Source of the DNA: Herpetosiphonaceae bacterium
Lineage (GTDB): Bacteria > Chloroflexota > Chloroflexia > Chloroflexales > Kallotenuaceae
Direction of reading: 5' to 3'
Assembly (NCBI GenBank): GCA_036374795.1
Contig: DASUTC010000265.1
Coordinates: 1-64,000, forward strand
Length of the DNA stretch: 64,000 bases
This document shows, piece after piece, positions 107 through 1,891 of the stretch (positions within the stretch are counted from its first letter, which is position 1; each line of letters starts with the position of its first letter). The notes under the pieces were generated by a model. It was given only the letters and a program-made list of their open reading frames with translations, did not search any database and was not told the origin of the DNA. The position numbers were made by a program, and so were the translations under genes.

Positions 107-1630
107 CTACGGAATATGGCTTAAGAGATTAGAAATCGAAGGTCGATCATCCGAATGCTCGCCCTCATACGACCAAACAATATTGCCATCTTGATCGAGA
201 ATGAACACCGACGGCGCGCTCCCGAACTTGGAAATCACCGCTCCACTCGGATCTGCAAGGACTGGAAAGCTGACTCCTGTTTTCTCAACGGTTGCCTGTG
301 CTTCGAAGATGTCCTGTTGGGCAACAGCCACGATCTCAGCGCCCTTTTCTCTAAAAACATCGTAATAATCTTCCAACTCACCGAGTTGGTTAATGCATGC
401 GGCTCAAGTATGTCCAACATACATCACTAACACGACGCTGTTATTTTCCAATACAGAAGCCAGATCGACGGTACTGCCGCTGCTGTCCTCCAATGTAAAA
501 TCCAGCGCAAGCTCGTTCGGCGCTGGCTCCTCCGGCGTTGGCTCCTCCGACGACTCAAACGGACTCGGACTAAAGAACGGGCTGGGATTAGAAACGGGTG
601 GGAATTGACTCTGTTGTATTCCATAGCCAGGATTGTCGATAACATTGCCTAAAACGGCAACCACAGCCGCCATAATGGTACAAATACCACCAATCATCGC
701 AACAAGCACGGCGGTTCTGTTCTGAGCCCTGAATCGGATCGTCGTCTTGGAGCCAGGCATTGGGGTAGCGGGTGGCGGGGCTGGTAGAGCAGCGGTGAGC
801 AATTGGAGCGCCTCGTGTGCATCGCTTGGCCGCTTATCCCGATCCAGCTCAAGCAGCGCGAGCAAGGTCTTTTCCAGAGCCGCTGGCACGCCGATCCTGA
901 TTTGGCTTGGCGGCGTCAGCGCTACCCCGGCCTGCCGAGCATAGGCGGGCGTGCCAAGCTGGCCCGTCAGCAGATGATAGGCAGTTGCAGCCAGGCTATA
1001 CAGATCGGAGCGCGCATCGGTCCCCTTTCCCTGAATTTGTTCCGGCGAGGCATACGCAAGCGATCCCATGCTGGCCGCCATGGTCATCGTTGAGGCGCCG
1101 TGCTTGGCAATGCCAAAATCAACTAATACATAGCGTCCGCGCGGTGTGCAGATGATATTCCCCGGCTTTATATCACGATGCACGATCGAAACTGCGTGGA
1201 GCTGCGACAAACACGCAAGCATGATTCGGAGAAAATCCTCAACCTGGCTGACGGACCAGGGCTGTCCCAGTAATTGCTCCAGGGTTTGGCCTTGGATATA
1301 TTCCATAGCCAGATAGGTTCTTGCATTATCGCTCCAACGATCGAAAATGCTGGGAATGAAGGGTAATTCGGTTGAGTAGTGGGCTAGAATGCCCGCTTCG
1401 ATCTCTAGCTGCTTCTGCTCAGCAGGCGTGGCAGATGAAACCTCTTTGATCGCGCATGGCCGACCAACATTAAGATCGAAGGCCTCATAAACTATGCCGC
1501 CTCCGCCACGTCCGAGCTCTCGTACCAATCGATAGCGATCACGAAGAACGACCTGTCTCCCGCAGCCAGTACAAAACCGAGAGTTGGGGTTGAGAATCGC
1601 ATTGCAGGAGAGGCACCGTGATACAGTCAT
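107..1630 (-). CDS. Membrane Ser/Thr protein kinase with C-terminal redoxin domain; candidate selenoprotein (in-frame TGA read as Sec409)
   Basis: Hanks-type Ser/Thr kinase. An N-terminal zinc ribbon has Cys6, Cys9, Cys20 and Cys23. The kinase domain (about 33-280) has a glycine-rich loop near 41, Lys62, catalytic HRDIKPGN at 151 and DFG at 171, so it looks active. A single membrane helix spans about 306-328, followed by a Pro/Ser/Glu-rich linker and an AhpC/TSA-type redoxin domain from about 372, predicted to lie outside the cytoplasm. The frame meets TGA at 406-404 (codon 409) and continues without a break for 98 more codons of well-formed redoxin sequence to TAG at 107-109. The local motif is GHT-U-AACINQL, which aligns with the usual YRGxWCPxCxxQL, so the TGA replaces the first Cys of CxxC. 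A SECIS-like hairpin lies just downstream. If TGA is a stop, the product is a 408-residue kinase lacking most of its redoxin domain. Base composition is visibly more AT-rich than in the neighbours. A GGGGG-rich ribosome site precedes ATG 1630. Confidence 0.72.
373..389 (-). promoter_or_regulatory. SECIS-like hairpin downstream of the in-frame TGA
   Basis: On the minus strand CCAACTC (389-383) pairs perfectly with GAGTTGG (379-373) around a three-base GGU loop (382-380). There are 21 nt between the TGA (406-404) and the first loop base. Known bacterial SECIS elements sit inside the coding region directly after UGA, with a short stem and a small loop carrying G and U about 16-37 nt downstream. 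Spacing, stem and loop all match that description. SelB binding is inference. Confidence 0.65.
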
Positions 1631-1891
1631 ACCCGCCCCCTAGACAGCGCTACGTTGAAGATTCGGATTGATGATTGAGAATGGTTATAAGTAAGGATGA
1701 AGGAATGTCTTTTTTATTCTACTATCCTCGTCAAGCAGTGCCGCTCTTGGTCGGCTTTGGCAGCGGCGAGGCTGACAGCATGCTCCTCCAGCGTCGAACG
1801 TGTGGCACGATAGTGGCGAGCTGCTAAAATATGAGGAACGACGCCATCGATTTGCCGTTGATCTGAGCGGCTTATCTAGAGAGATCATACC

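Follow-up and report, generated by a model that had tools for sequence, protein, structure and literature searches.

The locus described here raises the question of whether a single in-frame TGA in a bacterial protein kinase gene ends the protein or is read as selenocysteine (Sec), and what the resulting protein might do. The window, by which we mean the whole stretch of 64,000 nucleotides of contig DASUTC010000265.1 (Herpetosiphonaceae bacterium, assembly GCA_036374795.1) that was analyzed, contains this gene on its minus strand (107..1630), as defined by reading of the frame and by Pfam matches. All features given below are on this strand. The frame starts with an ATG at 1630, preceded by a G-rich stretch that is a possible ribosome-binding site (1634..1641; sequence only), meets one TGA at codon 409 (404..406) and then remains open for 98 codons up to the true stop TAG (107..109). 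Read with Sec at position 409, the product comprises 507 residues. A sequence-only reading had proposed this frame as a new selenoprotein, and every position it gave for the frame, the TGA, the redox motif and the hairpin downstream was confirmed.

The predicted protein begins with a zinc-ribbon-like pair of motifs, CLSC...CTGC (residues 6-23; 1562..1615), followed by a Hanks-type Ser/Thr kinase domain (residues 33-269; 824..1534; PF00069, 8.4e-37). Membership in this kinase family is met with 127 bits against a cut-off of 31.7, and the catalytic motifs AIK with the catalytic Lys, HRD (151) and DFG (171) are all intact. One transmembrane segment follows (residues 308-326; 653..709; hydropathy of 2.65 over 19 residues). 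It is flanked by basic residues on the kinase side, from which we infer by the positive-inside rule that the kinase lies inside and the redoxin outside; the extracytoplasmic location of the Pro/Ser/Glu-rich linker (residues 327-372; 515..652) is likewise inferred. The C-terminal part is an AhpC/TSA redoxin domain (residues 373-507; 110..514; PF00578, 1.3e-22; PF08534, 3.5e-20). Its AhpC-TSA match covers residues 373-486 and thus both sides of codon 409. The TGA occupies the first position of the redox motif U409-A-A-C412, with Sec first and Cys second, and its reading as selenocysteine rests on the comparative evidence given below.

The first rival explanation is that the redoxin tail has been lost through a nonsense mutation or an error of sequencing, leaving a pseudogene or a product of 408 residues. 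In its favor, the standard code ends the open reading frame at 404. Against it, both frame and domain are intact up to the later TAG, and the source genome of the window (a draft assembly of 7.75 Mb in 373 contigs) encodes a full Sec machinery. SelA was found with 452 bits, SelB with 340 bits and SelD with 373 bits, and a tRNA-Sec scored 67.7 bits, above the Rfam cut-off, and was called by ARAGORN as SeC(tca) with the anticodon TCA. The genome-level criterion for a bacterial selenoprotein, SelA, SelB, SelD and tRNA-Sec in one genome, is thus met, in support of the original proposal. SelD has its own in-frame TGA within CAGUASK, the known Sec site of this protein, and the genome therefore encodes one or more predicted selenoproteins besides the kinase. 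The selD gene (L067, G000:C18:27476-28402) also shows a strong hairpin 16 nt past its TGA.

A second rival is that the TGA is read as some other residue by reassignment or suppression. The open frame beyond the TGA would fit this as well, but SelB, SelA and tRNA-Sec(tca) form a specific system in this genome, and relatives have Cys at the TGA position, which leaves next to no room for it.

Relatives of the redoxin tail were searched through 158 genomes of the class, and a profile search was carried out on a 400-genome sample of the phylum. Within the class, all listed matches with an internal stop have exactly one TGA, and neither TAA nor TAG was found. The phylum sample gave the same single-TGA picture, apart from one match in which a TAA accompanies the TGA. 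In most loci the TGA opens a UxxC motif (UPYC, UPHC, UPDC, UGAC), and relatives with Cys (CGTC, CGSC, CGAC, CSYC) also exist; the nearest relatives of the two kinase-redoxin fusions (see below) have either TGA or Cys at the Sec position. The selenoprotein criterion of an in-frame UGA at a redox position with UGA or Cys in homologues is therefore met, as the sequence-only reading had expected. The recurrence of the same TGA in many homologues, and the restriction of the class relatives to TGA among the stop codons, argue further against a truncated gene.

Among the genomes that have TGA redoxins, G061, G113, G003 and G004 contain a tRNA-Sec, and two SelA-negative genomes (G010 and G022) lack both a tRNA-Sec above the cut-off and, among the listed matches, a TGA redoxin. 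The class-wide association of SelA with TGA redoxins is weak evidence, since SelA is above the cut-off in 129 of the 158 class genomes. G003 has two TGA redoxins and a good tRNA-Sec and gave no SelA match; this genome is 86% complete and is probably missing sequence. UGA-containing UxxC redoxins are very common in this phylum, as judged from the class and phylum samples, with several per genome in some cases, and standard annotation would truncate them. One UGA redoxin (L119, G327:C94:25872-26291) carries UGPD, that is, Sec is kept and the second Cys is lost, and has a hairpin with an 8-bp stem.

Downstream of the TGA lies the putative bSECIS element, CCAACTC[GGT]GAGTTGG (373..389), identified by folding and by comparison with relatives. 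It is a perfect hairpin of 7 bp, at a distance from the TGA of 14 nt to its start and 21 nt to its loop, with an energy of -7.6 (hairpin alone) to -8.7 kcal/mol. Published limits for bSECIS elements (PMC13188914) are a loop of 3-9 nt, a stem of 4-16 bp, a distance of 16-37 nt after the UGA, a G in the first two loop positions and a minimum free energy of at most -7.5 kcal/mol. With its loop of 3 nt, 7 bp, GG, 21 nt and the energy given above, the hairpin meets all of them, as judged without an external SECIS program, and to this extent the proposal was again supported. The accompanying argument that such a hairpin would hardly arise by accident failed in part. Among the 1653 TGA triplets of the window, 8% are followed by an equally stable or better hairpin within the bSECIS limits, so that the hairpin is only moderately unusual and by itself weak evidence. 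Rfam, searched with a permissive E-value, gave no credible match of the hairpin to any described RNA family.

In dinucleotide shuffles the hairpin was not significant (z -0.9), and synonymous-codon shuffles and a comparison of UGA with Cys homologues were therefore used. Synonymous shuffles of the window gene reach the observed hairpin with p about 0.02. Hairpins score better in the UGA homologues than in those with Cys (p 2e-6), and the combined p of the synonymous shuffles is 1.5e-7 for the UGA genes of the class and 4e-8 for those of the phylum sample, compared with p near 1 for the Cys genes. These values are optimistic, because related genes were treated as independent. Six UGA genes around the kinase-redoxin fusions have their loop at a distance of exactly 21 nt downstream of the TGA, with the codons CAR CTC G.. 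GAG YTN. In these genes CAA pairs with TTG and CAG with CTG or CTT, a silent exchange of A-U for G-C. The hairpin is absent from the Cys relatives; in one of them (L107), which encodes the identical peptide QLVEL, the codon choice breaks it. Sliding controls on the six-sequence hairpin lowered the pairing from 90% to under 50%, and covariation counts inside the hairpin, with only six sequences, were not significant against shuffles. Taken together, the position of the TGA, the Sec machinery and the conservation of TGA and hairpin in relatives go far beyond chance.

A second fusion of the same architecture was found as a 586-codon frame in G061, a genome of another family of the same order. It consists of a CxxC pair, a kinase 44% identical to that of the window, a hydrophobic segment (hydropathy of 1.65, lower than the 2.65 of the window protein), a Thr/Pro-rich linker and a redoxin with DTUGAC, in which the TGA is at the same place as in the window gene. 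The N-terminal CxxC pair is also present in the nearest kinases. The G061 genome encodes SelA (436 bits) and tRNA-Sec (75.5 bits). That an independent fusion has the TGA too is a strong argument against a private mutation or a sequencing error, the worry that had been attached to the original proposal, and together with the evidence above makes the truncation explanation very unlikely. It also bears on a third rival, namely that the fusion is an assembly chimaera of two genes. The position of the gene at the end of its contig (C265) and the draft state of both assemblies would be in favor of this. Against it, the reading frame is continuous, a second assembly shows the same order, transmembrane segment, linker and TGA position, and the two fusion redoxins are sisters; a chimaera is thereby all but ruled out.

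This sisterhood was obtained in a tree of 50 redoxins (support 98/92), in which the fusion pair adjoins L107 (Cys, TCGTC) and a small cluster containing both Cys and UGA domains. L107, L108, L109 and L115, all of one family (f35), are long, extracytoplasmic-looking open reading frames in which an apparent chaperone part of SurA type is combined with two redoxins, both with CxxC, one TlpA-like and the other of AhpC/TSA type. In the kinase tree, sisterhood of the two fusion kinases remained unresolved. The 158 genomes of the class yielded no more than these two fusions, and with the relationship of their kinases undecided, either a single origin or two origins are possible.

In other genomes, the nearest kinases continue into different outer parts beyond the transmembrane segment. 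As related kinases keep the kinase and transmembrane part and differ in their outer domains, we regard this part as a chassis on which the outer domain can be exchanged. Within G061, the kinase that matches the window kinase best (L128, G061:C50:4421-5494) is of this kind and has a different outer domain beyond the transmembrane segment. A further related kinase (L031, G002:C8:206-1039) is interrupted by an in-frame TAG within its zinc-ribbon part, stops early beyond the kinase domain, and is likely to be decaying or mis-assembled. A scan of the contigs of the source genome recovered only kinases.

Gene structure, Sec machinery, conserved TGA with hairpin and second fusion are thus shown by computation. 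We consider it very likely that the gene encodes a real selenoprotein, for which neither protein nor selenium data are at hand; insertion of Sec in vivo is inferred. The likely overall explanation is a one-pass membrane kinase with an outer UxxC Sec redoxin, serving most probably as a redox receptor. According to this model, the zinc-ribbon-like motif and the Ser/Thr kinase would reside in the cytoplasm, connected by the single transmembrane segment to an extracytoplasmic linker and a Prx/ResA-like UxxC redoxin. Sec would be inserted at UGA 409 by means of the SelB and tRNA-Sec of the genome and the hairpin 14-31 nt downstream. Sec409 would act as attacking selenolate and Cys412 as resolving thiol, cycling between a selenol/thiol and a selenenyl-sulfide form; the attacking role of the first position is inferred from the order of the motif, as in ResA. 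Selenol chemistry is established, and Sec at the first position would react fast with disulfides or peroxides. The inner kinase may then be altered by the oxidation state outside the membrane, or by a thiol, disulfide or peroxide partner that binds there.

The main rival, which remains possible, accepts the selenoprotein and takes the outer redoxin for a working thiol-disulfide enzyme or partner-binding domain that is tethered or regulated by the kinase, with no signal passing inward. In its favor, the nearest relatives with Cys are joined to parts resembling SurA and TlpA, as is seen in proteins for extracytoplasmic folding or reduction, and the UxxC motif retains both catalytic residues. Against it, unrelated outer domains are found on the same chassis, a pattern more in keeping with swappable sensors than with a shared enzyme. 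A redox receptor kinase is the economical reading because the redoxin is placed outside and the kinase inside, itself an inference, and the other outer domains borne by related kinases on the same chassis are what would be expected of exchangeable sensors. A receptor function is therefore plausible, with redox chemistry and coupling between redoxin and kinase inferred and the coupling untested.

The bolder form of the receptor reading, a selenocysteine receptor kinase whose outer Sec-Cys pair senses redox state and controls the cytoplasmic kinase, we hold to be slightly more doubtful than probable. If it is true, selenium supply would decide whether the full receptor is made or a kinase of 408 residues whose sensor is broken, because the UGA doubles as a stop. 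Bacterial selenoproteins of known function are mostly enzymes of redox or energy metabolism; a transmembrane Sec kinase used in signaling would extend the role of selenocysteine to signal transduction in bacteria and provide a directly testable case of selenium-dependent signaling. Such fusions will be missed or called truncated, since standard annotation ends the gene at the TGA.

When compared with known systems, each half of the protein is of a known kind, and their combination in a Sec-bearing transmembrane kinase appears to be new, as no earlier report was found; a word search of the open-access literature yielded no paper on a Sec-containing Hanks kinase. By domain score (PF00578, 80.4 bits against a gathering cut-off of 26) and by its motif U409-A-A-C412, the redoxin is a member of the known predicted Prx-like thiol:disulfide oxidoreductase (UxxC) selenoprotein family, its enzyme activity being inferred. 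These proteins (PF00578) are reviewed in PMC13188914 and PMC9312934 and listed from the Sargasso Sea in PMC1088965. They share with the window protein the domain family, UxxC, the bSECIS just downstream and Cys homologues. They differ in being listed by their redoxin domain, with a kinase or transmembrane fusion unmentioned in the relevant passages searched. Similarity to ResA/TlpA is seen in profiles of the ResA structures 3c71 and 1st9 and in NF002854 (1.7e-15), but the redoxin scores 57 bits against an NCBIfam cut-off of 170, and Sec replaces the first Cys. Together, the profile matches to Pfam and to PDB structures make the fold clear. Membership in three further groups was not met: the peroxiredoxin selenoproteins (TxxU), as Sec is at the first motif position and Cys at the second, peroxidatic position; the SelL-related redox proteins (NF040769, 61.9 bits against a curated cut-off of 120); and the PASTA kinases PknB and Stk1 (NF033483, 175 bits against 450, kinase part only).

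SelO (PMC3281104) is likewise a kinase-fold selenoprotein. Its kinase fold is atypical, its Sec lies close to the C terminus of the protein itself, and it lacks a transmembrane segment, whereas the window protein has a canonical Hanks kinase and carries Sec in a separate redoxin domain; there was no SelO match among the Pfam hits, of which PF00069 was the top one. SpkB of Synechocystis is a thiol-redox-regulated Ser/Thr kinase in which a Cys-rich N-terminal extension is a thioredoxin-mediated switch (PMC10651672). The window protein likewise has Cys residues near its N terminus, in the CxxC pair, which may resemble those of SpkB; no Sec is mentioned for the latter. A precedent for the architecture is a Ser/Thr kinase of M. 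tuberculosis, probably PknE, with an extracytoplasmic DsbA-like thioredoxin-fold domain (similarity E 1e-4; PMC1262709). Both proteins have the kinase inside, a transmembrane segment and a thioredoxin-fold domain outside, but the M. tuberculosis domain is of DsbA type with no Sec reported, and that of the window protein is of AhpC/TSA type with Sec. The initial claim that a kinase-redoxin fusion was unfamiliar thus held only in part, and what remains new is a version that combines selenocysteine with a domain of the AhpC/TSA type.
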